A stretch of DNA of 64,000 bases from Vulcanimicrobiota bacterium (lineage in GTDB: Bacteria; Vulcanimicrobiota; Vulcanimicrobiia; Vulcanimicrobiales; Vulcanimicrobiaceae), in the NCBI GenBank assembly GCA_027459645.1, contig DAIDHQ010000010.1, positions 1 to 64,000 of the forward strand, in the 5' to 3' direction. Positions 4,392-34,971 of this stretch are shown piece by piece. The first letter of the stretch is position 1, and each line of letters opens with the position of its first letter. The notes under the pieces are model-generated. The model did no database searches, was not told the origin of the DNA, and saw only the letters and a program-made list of their open reading frames with translations. The position numbers were made by a program, and so were the translations under genes.

Positions 4392-5360
4392 TTGAAGCAG
4401 ATTCGCCCGGTTGCCCTCGTCCTCGCTGCGGCCGTTTTGGCCGCCTGTTCCAGCAACACGTCGAGCAGTTCGAGCAGCACGACCGCATCGAGCCCCGGTC
4501 CGCAAGGCAGCGCCGTCAAAACGATCGGCGTTTCGATTCAGGACCGCGAGGCGCAATTCTATCAAGATATGGAAAGCGGCATGCAAGCGCAGGCCAAAAA
4601 ATACGGCTACAAACTGATCGTCGTCGACGCTAATCGCGACAACGCGAAGCAGCAGAGCCAAGTCGAGGACTTCATTTCGAATAAGGTCGATGCGATCGTC
4701 CTGACGCCGTACGACTCGACCGCCATCGGCAGCGCGATCGCCGAAGCGAACCGCGCGAAGATTCCCGTTTTTACCGCCGATATCGCGAGTACGAGCAAGC
4801 TCGGCAAAGTGGTCGCGCACGTAGCGAGCGACAACGTGCAGGGCGGCGCCGAAGCCGCGAAGTTGATGTGCAAAGCCGTCGGTAAGACGGGCACCGTCGC
4901 CATCATCGACGAGCCCGAAGTCACGAGCGTGCAGGATCGCGTCAAGGGATTTCGCGCGACGCTGAAATCGACGTGCCCCGGCGTTACCGTGGTCGCCGAC
5001 GTCGATGCCGGCGGTCAGCGCGACAAGGCCAACCAAGACATGAGCGATCTCTTGCAGTCGAACAAGAATCTCAAAGGCGTGTTCGGCATCAACGACGACT
5101 CCGCACTCGGTGCGCTCACCGCGATTCGCGCGGCGGGCCTGAACGGAAAGATCGCCGTCGTCGGATACGACGCGACGCCTGAAGCGCGCACCGCAATTGC
5201 GTCGGGCGACATGTACGGCGACGCGGTGCAACATCCCGATCAAATCGGCAAGCTCACGATCCAGACGATTCACGATTACTTCGCCGGCAAGAAGGTGCAG
5301 CCGGTCGTGCACGTTCCCGTCGGCTCCTTTACGCAAGCCGACGCCAAGAAAGCCCAGTAG
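4392..5360 (+). CDS. periplasmic sugar-binding lipoprotein of an ABC importer (RbsB-like)
   Basis: I start this at the TTG at 4392 because AGGAG (4380-4384) lies 7 nt upstream and the product then begins directly with a lipoprotein signal (KQIRPVALVLAAAVLAAC, lipid-anchored Cys at residue 19). Upstream in-frame ATGs at 4326 and 4374 lack a comparable ribosome site. After a Ser-rich linker comes a type I periplasmic-binding-protein fold: IGVSIQDREAQFYQDMESGM, DAIVLTPYDSTAIGSAIAEA and VVGYDATPEARTAIASGDM, as in ribose/galactose-binding proteins. It is 322 aa. It would deliver a monosaccharide to the ATPase and permease encoded just downstream. The sugar is unknown. Confidence 0.88.
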   Translation: MKQIRPVALVLAAAVLAACSSNTSSSSSSTTASSPGPQGSAVKTIGVSIQDREAQFYQDMESGMQAQAKKYGYKLIVVDANRDNAKQQSQVEDFISNKVDAIVLTPYDSTAIGSAIAEANRAKIPVFTADIASTSKLGKVVAHVASDNVQGGAEAAKLMCKAVGKTGTVAIIDEPEVTSVQDRVKGFRATLKSTCPGVTVVADVDAGGQRDKANQDMSDLLQSNKNLKGVFGINDDSALGALTAIRAAGLNGKIAVVGYDATPEARTAIASGDMYGDAVQHPDQIGKLTIQTIHDYFAGKKVQPVVHVPVGSFTQADAKKAQ

Positions 5361-28760: not shown

Positions 28761-29171
28761 TTGAAAGCACTCGGTACGCACATCGTGTGTGAGCTGTCTG
28801 GCTGCGACGCGGCCGCGCTTACGGATGTGGATGCCGTCCGTGAGATGATGATCGGAGCGGCGAAGGCATCTCGGGCGACCGTTATGGAAGTCGCCTTCCA
28901 TCGTTTTGAGCCTCATGGGGTAAGCGGCGTGGTGATACTCGCCGAGTCCCATATCTCGATCCACACCTGGCCGGAGACCGGCTATGCCGCCATGGATTTT
29001 TACACCTGCGGCGACCACACCGACCCCTCACTCGCTTGTGAGTATGCAGCTAAGCATCTCGAGGCGAAGGTCATGCAGACGACCGAAGTCAAGCGCGGGA
29101 TCGCTCAGCCGAGCGGAACGTACACCCACGCCGTGACGCGCGACCACGAAACGGTCGCTCTCTCCGCCTAG
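28761..29171 (+). CDS. speH: S-adenosylmethionine decarboxylase proenzyme (prokaryotic class 1b)
   Basis: 136 aa from a TTG at 28761, with GGAG 4-5 nt upstream. The self-processing site is in AESHISIHTWPETGYAAMDFYTCG: cleavage between Glu62 and Ser63 creates the pyruvoyl group, with His68 and Cys83 as catalytic residues, all present. It makes decarboxylated AdoMet, the aminopropyl donor for spermidine. Spermidine synthase lies 5 kb downstream after the two sedolisins. A strong terminator (29230-29257) ends its transcript. Confidence 0.95.
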   Translation: MKALGTHIVCELSGCDAAALTDVDAVREMMIGAAKASRATVMEVAFHRFEPHGVSGVVILAESHISIHTWPETGYAAMDFYTCGDHTDPSLACEYAAKHLEAKVMQTTEVKRGIAQPSGTYTHAVTRDHETVALSA

Positions 29172-29337: not shown

Positions 29338-31602
29338 ATGAACGCCCGGATTGGTTTTCGCGCCGGCGGTATTGCCGCGGCGCTAGCATGTGCATTCCTC
29401 GCCGCCTGCGGCGGTGGAGGCGGAGGCAGTCCCACGCCGATCACGCCGCAGGCCACACCCACACCCACGATCGCGCCGACCGCGCAAGCGACGAGCGCGC
29501 CCTTAAGCACAACTACGACGACGCCGATTAATCTCGGCGGCGTTTCGAGCGGTGGCGTCAACGTCGTCAGCAGTGCTTCGCTCACGATGCCTTCGGTTAG
29601 TGCTGCATCGACGGCCAGCGTTACGTTGACTGCTGTTGCCCCCTCCGGCGTGCCGACGCCCTCCGCGATGAGCATCCATTTGAAGAAGCCCTCGACGCTC
29701 GGCGTTCCCTCGACGCCGCTTGCGTATTTCGCCGTGTCGGTGAATTCGGCCGTGACGATTACCCAGAGCCCGGCCTTCACCGTGAACTTCGTAGCGGCGC
29801 AAACCGGCAATTGCTACGTCGTCGTCTTTGATACGGCAAATCAGGCGAACGGATGGAACGGCATGCTGGGTCCGCAGCCCTGCGGATCGTCGGTGTCGTT
29901 CCCGTCAGTGGCGTTGAACCCGCCGTTCACACTCGCTGCGAATGACGTGTACGTCTTCGCGATCGTCACGACGTCCGCCAGCATTGCGACGCCGACGCCG
30001 ACGCCATCGCCGACGCCGACCATTGCGCCAACAAACGCGCCTGCCGGCCAATCGTCGCCGCTTCCGAACATTCTGGCGCCGACGTCCGCACCAGGCTGGG
30101 CGCCCTATCAAGTCGCTACGGCGTTCCAATTCCCCGTTCAATCGGGATACGACGGTGCGGGTCAAACCGTCGTCATCATCGGCGATAATCCGCCGCTGCA
30201 GAGCGATTTGACCGCTTTCCAGTCGTATTTCCAAACGACGGTGGCCGGCTACGGGACGTACAATATCGTCAACGTCGGTACGGGCCAAACTACGAGCGAT
30301 ACCGGCGGCCAAGCCGAAGCGACGCTCGACGTCGAGACCGTGATGGCGCTCGCACCGGGTGCAAACATCGAGTTCTACTGGGTCGGAGGCTTGAGCAATC
30401 AAAACTTTACCCAGGCCTACAATCAGGCGATCACCGACACGAACAAACCGCACGTCTTCAGCATCTCGTTCGGCGGCTGCGAAAACAGCTACACGAACAC
30501 GACGCAAGACACGACGCTCGTGCAAGGTGCCGCGGCGGGCATCGCGTACGTCGCCTCGGCCGGCGATCAAGGCGATGAGTGCTACATCGGCCCCGGATAT
30601 CAAATCGGCGTCAACAGCCCGGCGAGCGATCCGAATGTGGTTGGCGTCGGCGGAAACGAAACATACGATCCGGCGCCCAATGGATCGCTGACCAGCACGT
30701 ACGCCTGGAACGACACCGACTTCTTCTCGGGCCAAGGCGCGACGGGCGGCGGCGTTTCCGCGTACTTCACGCCTCCGCCGTATCAAGCCGGCGTCAGCAA
30801 CGCATCGACGTCATTCCGCAGCGTTCCCGATGTCGCCATGCCGGCGGTCAACGTGGCGATTTACCTGAACGGTAAGTTCCAGCAATACGGCGGTACGTCG
30901 TGGAGCGCACCGCAGATGGCGGCGATGCTCGCGACCCTCAACCAATATTGCGGCGGCTCGTTGGGTGCGAACCCGGGAACGTGGCTCTATACGGCGTTCA
31001 AGCGCGGCGCTTCGAACTTCTTCGACGTCACGCAGGGCAACAATCAATTCGGAACCGACGCCACCTACTACAAAGCCGCCGTCGGTTACGACATGACGAC
31101 CGGCCTCGGCATCCCGTATGGCATGAAGGTTGCGCAATCGATCTGCGGCAACGGCGGCGTTGGTCCGGCGTTCGGTTATAAGCCGGCAGCGCAGAGCATC
31201 GAACCCATCGACGGCTACGGTGCTGCGCGCGACACGCTGATGCCGGCGGCTCCGCACAATTACGTGCAAGACCTCGGCGCGCGTGCCGCGTCGCAGTCGT
31301 CCGACGTGACGATCGTGCTGCGCGCTACGTCGACGCTCGCTCTGGATGAATCGAAGGTGACCGCGGCGCTGCGTAGCGCGGGCTTCACGATCGCCAAGAC
31401 CTATCCGGATCATCTCGTCATTGTCGCAAACGCTCCGGCGTCGACGATAGATGGATACTTCCGCACGCAGATGCACGACGTGAGCCAAGGCGCACGCGGC
31501 GTCCGGTATGTGAACGTCACGCCGGCTACCGTTCCCGCCGAGATCGCGCCGTACGTCAAAGGCGTACTGCTCGACAACCTCGACGTGTACACGCACCTCT
31601 AG
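29338..31602 (+). CDS. sedolisin-like serine-carboxyl peptidase lipoprotein (S53) with C-terminal propeptide-like domain, copy A
   Basis: 754 aa from the ATG at 29338 (GAGG about 9 nt upstream). A lipoprotein signal (FRAGGIAAALACAFLAAC) is followed by a G6 run and Thr/Pro linker. Residues about 60-230 form a beta-rich domain and about 245-280 a second Pro/Thr linker. The S53 catalytic domain (about 285-630) has Glu327 and Asp331 in EATLDVE, Asp410 in SAGDQGD (oxyanion hole) and Ser521 in GGTSWSAP, with calcium-site residues near Asp563 and Asp585. Residues about 650-754 resemble the pro-kumamolisin activation domain, which normally precedes the protease. It probably acts on the cell surface or in the periplasm at acid pH. 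Confidence 0.85.
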   Translation: MNARIGFRAGGIAAALACAFLAACGGGGGGSPTPITPQATPTPTIAPTAQATSAPLSTTTTTPINLGGVSSGGVNVVSSASLTMPSVSAASTASVTLTAVAPSGVPTPSAMSIHLKKPSTLGVPSTPLAYFAVSVNSAVTITQSPAFTVNFVAAQTGNCYVVVFDTANQANGWNGMLGPQPCGSSVSFPSVALNPPFTLAANDVYVFAIVTTSASIATPTPTPSPTPTIAPTNAPAGQSSPLPNILAPTSAPGWAPYQVATAFQFPVQSGYDGAGQTVVIIGDNPPLQSDLTAFQSYFQTTVAGYGTYNIVNVGTGQTTSDTGGQAEATLDVETVMALAPGANIEFYWVGGLSNQNFTQAYNQAITDTNKPHVFSISFGGCENSYTNTTQDTTLVQGAAAGIAYVASAGDQGDECYIGPGYQIGVNSPASDPNVVGVGGNETYDPAPNGSLTSTYAWNDTDFFSGQGATGGGVSAYFTPPPYQAGVSNASTSFRSVPDVAMPAVNVAIYLNGKFQQYGGTSWSAPQMAAMLATLNQYCGGSLGANPGTWLYTAFKRGASNFFDVTQGNNQFGTDATYYKAAVGYDMTTGLGIPYGMKVAQSICGNGGVGPAFGYKPAAQSIEPIDGYGAARDTLMPAAPHNYVQDLGARAASQSSDVTIVLRATSTLALDESKVTAALRSAGFTIAKTYPDHLVIVANAPASTIDGYFRTQMHDVSQGARGVRYVNVTPATVPAEIAPYVKGVLLDNLDVYTHL

Positions 31603-31622
31603 TCAAGCTCCGGCTTGTGGGG

Positions 31623-31648
31623 AAGGGCGCTGCTACGGCGGCGCTCTT
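31623..31648 (+). terminator. intrinsic terminator-like hairpin between the two sedolisins
   Basis: AAGGGCGC (31623-31630) pairs with GCGCTCTT (31641-31648) with one G-U pair and a 10-nt loop, followed by TTCC. It lies 20 nt after copy A, so copy B probably has its own transcript. Confidence 0.6.
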
Positions 31649-31720
31649 TCCACATCTCTCCCGCGTAGTGGATAAAAAGACATTTTGCTACTTCTCAATT
31701 CACATAAGGAAATCAACCCC

Positions 31721-33997
31721 ATGATGACCCGTACGAGACTGCGAGTTGGCGGTCTTATCACGATCGTCGCTGCGGCTGCGCTTGCGGCTTGCGGCGGCGG
31801 TGGAGGCGGCACCCCGACTCCCGTTACCCCGCCCGGCACTCCCACCCCGACCATTGCGCCGACCACGCAAGCGACGACGGCGGCGCTGAGCCCCAGCGCC
31901 ACCACGCCGATCAACTTCGGCGGCATTTCCGAGAACGGCGTGAACATCCTCAACAGCGCATCGATGACGATGCCCGCCGTCAGTGTTGCAACCACCGCGC
32001 AGATTACGCTGGAGGCGCCCGTCCCGAGCGGCGTCGCGACGCCGTCGGCAATGAGCGTGCATCTAAAGAAGCCCTCCACCCTCGGCGTTCCGACCACGCC
32101 GATCGCCTATTTCGCCGTTACCGTCAATCCGACCGTAACGATCACGCAGAGCCCGGCGTTCACGATCAATTTCACGACCGCGCAAACCGGCAACTGTTAC
32201 ATCATCGTGTTTGACACGTCGAATCCGACGCAAGGGTGGAACGGCTTGCTCGGGCCGCAGCCGTGCAGCTCGTCCGTCTCGTTCCCGGCCGTGCCGATCA
32301 ATCCGCCATACACGCTGAACTCGTCCAGCGAGTACATTTTTGCGATCGTGGCGACGTCGGGGACGATTGAAACGCCGACGCCTTCACCGTCCCCGAGCTC
32401 GAGCCCAGGAGCGGCAGCGACGCTTCCGCCGGTCACCGGCTCGACCTTCGGCGGCTATGCGCCGTGGGATGTCGCGACCGCGTTTAACTTCCCCGTGCAG
32501 TCCGGCTACAACGGTGCAGGCGAGACCGTTGCCATCATTGGCGACGAAACCCCGTCCCCGGGTGACCTGCAAGGCTACCAAAACGACTGGAGCTTGCCGG
32601 GTAATCCGGCCGGTAACGTCACGGTGAAGAACGTCAGCGGCGTTACGCCCGGCGGTAGCGATCCCTCGGGATTGGGCGAAGCGACCCTCGACGTCGAAAC
32701 GGTCATGGGCCTTGCTCCGGGTGCAAACATCGTGTTCTATAACACGCAAGGCGACCTGAGCAACTCGGCATTCTTGCTCGCCGAGCAACAAGTGAAAACC
32801 GACAATCCCAACGTCTTCTCGCTCTCGTTCGGTGGATGCGAAAGCTACCCGGTGAGCCAAGCGACGCCTGCCCCCGACTCACCCGTTTTTGCGGCTATGA
32901 ACGCAAACGGCATGGCGGTCACGGCATCGTCGGGCGACCAGGGAGACAACTGCTTCACCGGTCAGACCTCGCCGCAATTCACGTTTGGCGTGAACTACCC
33001 GGCGAGCGACCCGAGCGTGATCGGCGTCGGTGGCAACGAGACGATTCCGACGACGTCCTCGCTCACCGCGCCGGTCGCTTGGAACGACACCGCGTTCAGC
33101 GGCAGCCAAGGTGCAACCGGCGGTGGCGTTTCCGTTGCTTACGCAATCCCGTCGTTCCAAGCCGGCGTTAGCGGAATGTTCTCCACCACGCAACGCAACG
33201 TCCCCGACGTTGCGATGCCGGCCGAAGGCGTGTTGATCCAACTCAACGGCAAGATGCAGGAATTCGGCGGAACGTCGTGGGCCGCACCGCAAACCGCGGC
33301 GCTCATGGCGGAACTCGACGAATACTGCAACGGTCGTCCGACCAATGCCGTCGCGGAACTCTATAAAGCCTACTCGCAGAGTGCGGGCAAGGACTTTATC
33401 GCGATCACGAGCGGCAACAACGCCTACGGTGCTGAGTCGGTGACGTACAAAGCCAACGCCAACGGTGGATACAACAACACAACCGGCCTCGGCTTGCTCA
33501 AAGGCATGTCGATCGCACAGACGATGTGCCCGAGCGGCACGTGGACCGGCGGCGTCGGCGGCGCGACCCGTCCGATGGCGCTCGCCAGCAACTACGGTGC
33601 CGCACGTCCGACCCAACTGCCGTACGTACGGCGCTTCACCGACTCGCAAGATCGCGGGCCGGTGGCCGCAGGTACGCAGACCAACGTGTTGCTCGTTCTT
33701 CGCAACACGCCGACGGCCGGCAGCGACCAGCAGAAGATCATCGACGATTTGACGGCCCATGGCTTCACCGTGAAGCAGACCTTCGCCGATCACTCGATGA
33801 TCCAAGTGAGCGCCCCGGCATCGGCCATAGCGAGCTACTTCAACACGGAGATTCACCAGGTCGACGGAGGCAAGTACGGCATGCTCTACTCGAACGCATC
33901 GCCGATCGTGCTTCCCGCGTCGATCGCGCCGTACGTCAGCACGGTGTTCGCCGACAACTTGCCGGCGCGCATCCCGCTGTCGTACCGCATCCGGTAA
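31721..33997 (+). CDS. sedolisin-like serine-carboxyl peptidase lipoprotein (S53) with C-terminal propeptide-like domain, copy B
   Basis: 758 aa from the ATG at 31721 (AAGGA 10 nt upstream). Same architecture as copy A: lipobox LAAC, Gly run, Thr/Pro linker, a beta-rich domain (about 60-230; AMSVHLKKPSTLGVP is shared), S53 domain with Glu320 and Asp324 (EATLDVE), Asp406 (SSGDQGD) and Ser519 (GGTSWAAP), and a C-terminal domain from about residue 650 (NVLLVLRNTPTAGS ... IAPYVSTVFADNLP). Every catalytic residue is intact. Divergence from A is spread over the whole length, so the duplication is not recent. A hairpin at 34030 follows. Confidence 0.85.
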   Translation: MMTRTRLRVGGLITIVAAAALAACGGGGGGTPTPVTPPGTPTPTIAPTTQATTAALSPSATTPINFGGISENGVNILNSASMTMPAVSVATTAQITLEAPVPSGVATPSAMSVHLKKPSTLGVPTTPIAYFAVTVNPTVTITQSPAFTINFTTAQTGNCYIIVFDTSNPTQGWNGLLGPQPCSSSVSFPAVPINPPYTLNSSSEYIFAIVATSGTIETPTPSPSPSSSPGAAATLPPVTGSTFGGYAPWDVATAFNFPVQSGYNGAGETVAIIGDETPSPGDLQGYQNDWSLPGNPAGNVTVKNVSGVTPGGSDPSGLGEATLDVETVMGLAPGANIVFYNTQGDLSNSAFLLAEQQVKTDNPNVFSLSFGGCESYPVSQATPAPDSPVFAAMNANGMAVTASSGDQGDNCFTGQTSPQFTFGVNYPASDPSVIGVGGNETIPTTSSLTAPVAWNDTAFSGSQGATGGGVSVAYAIPSFQAGVSGMFSTTQRNVPDVAMPAEGVLIQLNGKMQEFGGTSWAAPQTAALMAELDEYCNGRPTNAVAELYKAYSQSAGKDFIAITSGNNAYGAESVTYKANANGGYNNTTGLGLLKGMSIAQTMCPSGTWTGGVGGATRPMALASNYGAARPTQLPYVRRFTDSQDRGPVAAGTQTNVLLVLRNTPTAGSDQQKIIDDLTAHGFTVKQTFADHSMIQVSAPASAIASYFNTEIHQVDGGKYGMLYSNASPIVLPASIAPYVSTVFADNLPARIPLSYRIR

Positions 33998-34080: not shown

Positions 34081-34971
34081 ATGCCTAAAACCGAACATTG
34101 GCAGTGGTACGTTGAAGAATCGGCACCCACCGAGCAGCATCACCACGCGATCGACAACGTCTATTACACGGGTCGCTCCGAATTTCAGCAAGTCGCGGTC
34201 ATTAGCACGCCGGTCTTCGGCAAGATGTTGATTCTCGACGGCGACACGCAGAGTTCGGAACACGACGAAAAGATCTACCACGAGACGCTCGTTCATCCGG
34301 CGATGGCCGGCGCGAGCGACCGTTCCGACGTGTTGATTCTGGGCGGCGGCGAAGGGGCGACGCTGCGCGAGGTGTTGCGCCGCAACGACGTGCGCCGCTG
34401 CACGATGGTCGACATCGACGGCCTCGTCGTCGACCTTTCGAAAGAGTTTTTGCCCGAGTGGTCCGACGGTGCCTTCGACGATCCGCGCGCGCGTGTAATC
34501 GTCGGCGACGCGCTGCAGTTCATGCGCGACGACAAAGACCGCTACGGCGTCATCATTTCCGATCTCACCGAGCCGCTCGAAGATTCACCGAGCAACATGC
34601 TCTTCAACGACGAAGTGTTTGCGCTCATCAAGTCGCGTCTAGCGGACGACGGCGTCTACGTACTCCAAGCGAGCACGCTTGCCTTCCACAATCTCTCGCT
34701 GCACTGCAAGATGGCGCGCACGCTGCGTCAGCACTATAAATACGTCGCGTCGTTCTTCCACTATGTGCCGGCCTTTGACACCGATTGGGCGTTTCTGGCC
34801 TGTAGCGACCGGGTCGATCTCGCGACTCTGAGCGAGGTTGCCGTCAACGACTACTGCGCTGGCCTGAAGGGCGAGAACTTTTTCTACGACGGCGAGACCC
34901 ACAAACGGCTCTTCTCGCTGCCGCTCTACGTGCGCCGCGCGATCGCCAAGCCGGGGCCGGTGTTTAGCTAA
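34081..34971 (+). CDS. speE: spermidine synthase
   Basis: 296 aa from the ATG at 34081; frames open further upstream run across the terminator and are not conserved. Key motifs: QSSEHDEKIYHETLVHPAM, the AdoMet-binding LILGGGEGATLREVLR, MVDIDGLVVDLSKEFLP, and VIISDLTEPLED with the catalytic Asp. It transfers the aminopropyl group made by SpeH to putrescine. It lies apart from speH with the two sedolisin genes in between. Confidence 0.95.
   Translation: MPKTEHWQWYVEESAPTEQHHHAIDNVYYTGRSEFQQVAVISTPVFGKMLILDGDTQSSEHDEKIYHETLVHPAMAGASDRSDVLILGGGEGATLREVLRRNDVRRCTMVDIDGLVVDLSKEFLPEWSDGAFDDPRARVIVGDALQFMRDDKDRYGVIISDLTEPLEDSPSNMLFNDEVFALIKSRLADDGVYVLQASTLAFHNLSLHCKMARTLRQHYKYVASFFHYVPAFDTDWAFLACSDRVDLATLSEVAVNDYCAGLKGENFFYDGETHKRLFSLPLYVRRAIAKPGPVFS

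Follow-up and report, generated by a model that had tools for sequence, protein, structure and literature searches.

Tandem lipoprotein sedolisins with a C-terminal prodomain in the Vulcanimicrobiota

Gene organization and domain order

The window considered here is a stretch of 64,000 nucleotides of contig DAIDHQ010000010.1, from a 3.14 Mb genome of the phylum Vulcanimicrobiota, for which Candidatus Eremiobacterota is the older name that relatives still carry. Two genes, A and B, lie in tandem on the plus strand between speD and a speE-like gene, and their products are 55% identical (Table 1). The preliminary description of this DNA had proposed two tandem reading frames with a lipobox and with the protease ahead of the tail, and this is the arrangement found: both frames are open, and each product begins with a signal peptide that has a lipobox (by inspection of the translations LAAC, with Cys24, in both), after which come a Thr/Pro linker, the beta-domain, another linker rich in Pro, the S53 protease domain and finally a tail some 150 residues long.

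Table 1. Features of genes A and B and their neighbours (positions in the window)
Feature	Position	Strand	Evidence
speD, adenosylmethionine decarboxylase, upstream neighbour	28761..29171	+	TIGR03330, 150.6 bits, over cut-off
Gene A, 754 aa, S53 protease of lipoprotein type, prodomain at the C-terminus	29338..31602	+	ORF, Pfam and phmmer matches
A, lipobox signal peptide (LAAC, Cys24)	29338..29409	+	translation read by eye
A, N-terminal beta-domain, residues about 49-211	29482..29970	+	all-beta in model, no Pfam match
A, S53 protease domain, residues 253-603; Glu327, Asp331, Asp410, Ser521	30094..31146	+	homology, alignment, Foldseek
A, linker between protease and prodomain, conserved in length but not in sequence	31147..31269	+	alignment of relatives
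A, relocated prodomain, residues 645-745	31270..31572	+	PF09286 match at 31345-31569
Gene B, 758 aa, second S53 protease of this type, prodomain at the C-terminus	31721..33997	+	ORF, Pfam match
B, S53 protease domain; Glu320, Asp324, Asp406, Ser519	32456..33529	+	alignment
B, relocated prodomain	33650..33958	+	PF09286 match at 33731-33949
speE-like polyamine aminopropyltransferase, downstream neighbour	34081..34971	+	NF002010, 235.6 bits (cut-off 260, not reached)

The position between speD and speE is shared by part of the prodomain-last clade only, and a hairpin lies between speD and gene A (listed on the minus strand, with a T run following it on the plus strand also); for these two reasons an operon of A and B with the polyamine genes is unsupported. 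The same flanking genes were observed at L069, L074 and L076, and speE alone at L079, where the contig begins near the gene.

The protease domain

Residues 253-603 of A match kumamolisin-As (1sio) with an E-value of 2.3e-38 in phmmer, and Foldseek aligns the protease model with 1sn7 at a TM-score of 0.83 by target, which indicates the S53 subtilisin-like fold; by fold and sequence, A and B classify as S53 sedolisin/kumamolisin peptidases, a family of acid proteases. The catalytic Glu and Asp, the oxyanion Asp and the Ser, all of which had been described as intact in both copies, are indeed present in A and B and invariant in all 18 aligned relatives, a set that includes the two copies.

Copy B is nevertheless not intact in every respect, since Asp563 and Asp585 of A are replaced in it by Ala561 and Asn585. 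By comparison with kumamolisin, we take these positions of A for probable calcium ligands near the C-terminus of the protease, of which copy B would have lost two. Within residues 560-585 of copy B (33398-33477) the motifs read FIAIT and GGYNN, those of the relatives being FxDVT and GYDN; the catalytic residues are retained. Four cysteines of the protease domain (residues 381, 415, 538 and 603 of A, or 134, 168, 291 and 356 in the first row of the alignment) are invariant in the 18 proteins with a tail prodomain, a pattern that suggests two disulfides.

Identity of the C-terminal domain

In hmmscan, Pro-kuma_activ (PF09286, curated cut-off 23.5 bits) matches residues 670-744 of A with an E-value of 3.7e-9 and 37.4 bits, and a region close to the C-terminal end of B with an E-value of 1.6e-5 and 25.6 bits. 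The profile matches nowhere else in A or B, and no second prodomain appeared in either protein even with permissive thresholds. Taken one by one, all 18 tails of the alignment match PF09286 at E ≤ 0.01, and these single matches, together with the order kept in 23 proteins, argue against a chance similarity. The resemblance of the tail to Pro-kuma_activ, which the preliminary description had offered as a reading by eye, is thereby borne out above the curated cut-off in both tails; the outcome that would have spoken against it, a match of the N-terminal beta-domain to this profile instead, was not seen.

Aligned with the prodomains that stand first in related proteins, the tail has the same D-(L)G-RR lead-in, followed by the first strand, the helix, the GF-strand, the AP-helix, a strand and the (V/L)PA-IAP ending. 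It lacks a segment of about 35 residues, between the first strand and the first helix, that the other types keep; the YHxFLT segment is absent from the tail-type prodomain, and the match covers PF09286 at less than full length, beginning at profile position 63 owing to the shortened front half of the tail. AlphaFold2 predicts a succession of strand, helix, strand, strand, helix and strand, an order like that of a prodomain, with pLDDT mostly above 80. In a profile search of the PDB with the tails, pro-kumamolisin (1t1e) came up with two colinear stretches, one on either side of the lost segment, but at an E-value of 0.3, level with unrelated proteins, and we therefore do not take this match as proof of the identity of the tail. 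The tail of copy B is divergent, being only 40% identical to that of A. From the profile matches and the alignment, we regard the tails of A and B as true Pro-kuma_activ domains in reversed order with respect to the protease. A tail that represents the start of a following gene can be ruled out, as protease and tail share one reading frame in all relatives.

The order had also been said to look like a circular permutation. The prodomain does follow the protease, as this would have it, but what precedes the protease is an unrelated and exchangeable domain, and the change is better described as a relocation than as a neat permutation. Among the relatives the N-terminal position may be taken by the beta-domain, by a tectonin-like domain (PF19193) or by other sequence, or be almost empty; the beta-domain is a surface module that can be exchanged, and it is no prodomain. 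A disguised prodomain in this position is ruled out by the all-beta model and the lack of a PF09286 match, and also by the distribution of the domain, which is missing from proteins where some 45-68 mature residues precede the protease and present in lipoproteins that have no protease. The large protease-free lipoproteins in which the beta-domain of A and B recurs are L136 (G000:C27) and L139 (G011:C43); in neither A nor B does this shared module match a Pfam family.

Constraint on tail and linker

The tail prodomain is under purifying selection like that on the protease: in three close pairs, the only ones with unsaturated synonymous change, dN/dS is 0.09-0.12 for the prodomain, 0.13-0.14 for the protease and 0.19-0.44 for the linker. 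Mean identity over the 18 rows follows the same ranking of the linker, at 27% as against 49% for the prodomain and 51% for the protease. The spacing from the protease to the core of the prodomain is nevertheless 60-66 residues in 22 of 22 proteins, whereas upstream of the protease the mature chain measures anywhere from 45 to 369 residues; a linker constant in length and free in sequence is suited to serve as a tether. The C-terminus lies 7-25 residues beyond the end of the prodomain, so that the linker which in pro-kumamolisin runs on into the mature enzyme is missing.

Distribution and origin

The preliminary description had called for a search for further proteins of the same order. With a model of the protease end plus the tail, 149 genomes of the phylum Vulcanimicrobiota were surveyed, and 23 such proteins were recovered from 20 of them, in three families of one class, each matching the model over nearly its full length with 246-361 bits; the next-best matches fall to 112 bits and cover one half of the model only. 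A search of the whole genome that contains A and B recovered the two tails and three further Pro-kuma_activ domains, all three of them in the usual place before the protease. Outside the phylum, a scan of 84,980 species with two motifs of this family revealed no prodomain-last protein, and among 195 genomes from the phylum to which a Spartobacteria record belongs, none had a Pro-kuma_activ domain. At L080 (363-3053 and 3057-5786) another tandem pair of prodomain-last proteases was noted, whose reading frames, taken as ORFs, are one stop codon apart. Literature searches for a sedolisin with a C-terminal prodomain or a circular permutation, with most subscription journals outside their coverage, returned nothing relevant, and we found no description of the prodomain-last S53 layout in the literature so searched.

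In the protease trees the prodomain-last proteins form one clade with 99-100% bootstrap (100/99 with 15 rows and 99/96 with 22 rows), which is embedded in a group of lipoprotein sedolisins whose prodomain comes first. The nearest proteins to this clade are prodomain-first ones, including the head-to-tail tandem L119, and the prodomain of the prodomain-first relatives is about 40-54% identical to the tail. Trees of the prodomain, calculated from 81 columns, agree but are weaker (99/96, and 80/91 after adding the long split branch described below). Since the clade is single and lies inside the prodomain-first type, the simplest reading is a single relocation, from before to behind the protease; both the architecture and its single origin in the protease tree are well supported.

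A split form was found in G016:C175 (L126), where an ORF of 177 aa (4642-5172, minus strand) encodes a signal peptide and a PF09286 domain with 52.1 bits and ends just inside the beginning of an S53 lipoprotein gene lacking a prodomain (L126:3138-4649, minus strand; ATGCACCATGCGCGCTAACG). This pair presumably represents a split zymogen acting in trans, and it lends indirect support to the in-trans control suggested in the preliminary description. In the protease tree it is sister to the prodomain-last clade, though weakly supported (92/67) and on a long branch. The route of relocation may have led from a prodomain standing first, through a separate prodomain gene that acted in trans, to fusion behind the protease; alternatively, tandem copies may have fused and then been trimmed.

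Proposed control of the protease by the tail

Subtilisin and sedolisin proteases are a textbook case in which the prodomain comes first, assists folding, inhibits the enzyme and is cleaved away afterwards, and we know of no natural family in which a prodomain of the subtilisin propeptide type stands at the tail. The propeptide of subtilisin (I9) is small and ferredoxin-like and can act in trans, and in malaria parasites an inhibitor resembling the SUB1 propeptide reportedly provides an example of a prodomain-like protein doing so.

Prosegments of the sedolisin family form a domain that aids folding and inhibits the enzyme, and their linker to the catalytic domain is removed at low pH (PMC6278154). 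By analogy, we infer that the tail of A and B controls the protease in its folding, inhibition and pH gating. The chain would be exported protease first, and the tail, on a tether of fixed length, would fold back to the surface of the protease where an ordinary prodomain sits; docked there, it would help folding and keep the enzyme latent. Low pH would weaken the contact, and a cut in the fast-evolving linker would free the active site, the freed protease staying on the surface through its N-terminal lipid, with the N-terminal domain as a possible spacer or binding module. A and B are thus probably lipid-anchored sedolisins with a prodomain that was relocated once and now acts as a folding aid and a pH-gated inhibitor released by cutting of the linker. 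Several observations count against control by the tail: the AlphaFold2 models reach a pTM of only 0.53 and 0.67 and show no readable pose of the tail on the protease, the segment of 35 residues is lost, the continuing linker is missing and the tail of B is divergent.

The missing linker into the mature enzyme makes a serious rival of a permanent tethered lid, in which the tail would never be removed and would inhibit reversibly with pH, leaving an enzyme that, unlike ordinary sedolisins, could be closed again. A tail that does not continue into the mature enzyme could not be freed in the usual way by the usual self-cleavage, and the constant tether and the strong constraint on the tail also suit a lid. 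The variable linker would, however, lie open to proteases, this one included, and members of the family are normally cleaved on activation (PMC6278154); all in all we consider such a lid unlikely. Slightly more doubtful is a fuller scenario in which the zymogen domain was relocated by way of a two-gene stage acting in trans and is now a reversible pH-gated lid, latency and folding being independent of a prodomain-first order.

The loss of the 35-residue segment and the low identity between the two tails would also be expected of a domain with no role towards its own protease, be it surface-binding, dimerising or vestigial, but the low dN/dS of the tail in close pairs, its presence in 23 of 23 proteins and the fixed spacing make this improbable. 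That the layout is an artefact of assembly, gene calling or chance is scarcely conceivable: the relatives are all metagenome-assembled genomes, but the reading frame is uninterrupted in 20 genomes of separate assemblies and occurs twice in this one, and the phylogeny is coherent, so that the dismissal of an assembly artefact in the preliminary description, argued from the two copies, stands on broader ground.

A lineage that moved this domain to the end, and whose close relatives include both orders and a split form, is a natural setting in which to test whether folding, latency and activation need the prodomain to come first, and also allows one to ask which part of the prodomain is dispensable.

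Comparison with other S53 proteins

Kumamolisin, kumamolisin-As and pro-kumamolisin (1t1e) share with A and B the protease fold, the catalytic residues and the prodomain family PF09286; the kumamolisin prodomain is, however, N-terminal and longer, whereas that of A and B is C-terminal and about 35 residues shorter, in a protein that is lipid-anchored. The N-type lipoprotein sedolisins of the phylum (L021, L022, L119) have in common with A and B the lipobox, the DLGRR lead-in, the Pro-rich linker and a related S53 domain, but in them the prodomain precedes the protease and an extra domain with NPGFE(S/T)G lies between the two. The split form is, like A and B, a lipoprotein S53 without an N-terminal prodomain, and is related to them in the protease tree; it differs in that its prodomain resides in a separate gene upstream, which overlaps that of the protease and encodes a signal peptide of its own. 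The proform of human tripeptidyl-peptidase 1 (3edy, 3ee6) is an S53 protein with an inhibitory prosegment, and its structure matches the protease domain of A and B; unlike these, it has the prosegment at the N-terminus and is a lysosomal exopeptidase. Subtilisin has a related protease fold (Foldseek) but a catalytic triad different from that of S53.

Among seven plasmid-borne S53 proteins from Pseudomonadota, Actinomycetota and Deinococcota, Pro-kuma_activ was detected in five and is N-terminal in each of these. One plasmid match that seemed to reach into the tail was set aside, as it lies beyond the stop codon of that gene as annotated. A prodomain-first S53 protein on a plasmid of Methylocella tundrae (L141:1485-4175) carries a class 3 lipase domain (PF01764) at its C-terminus.
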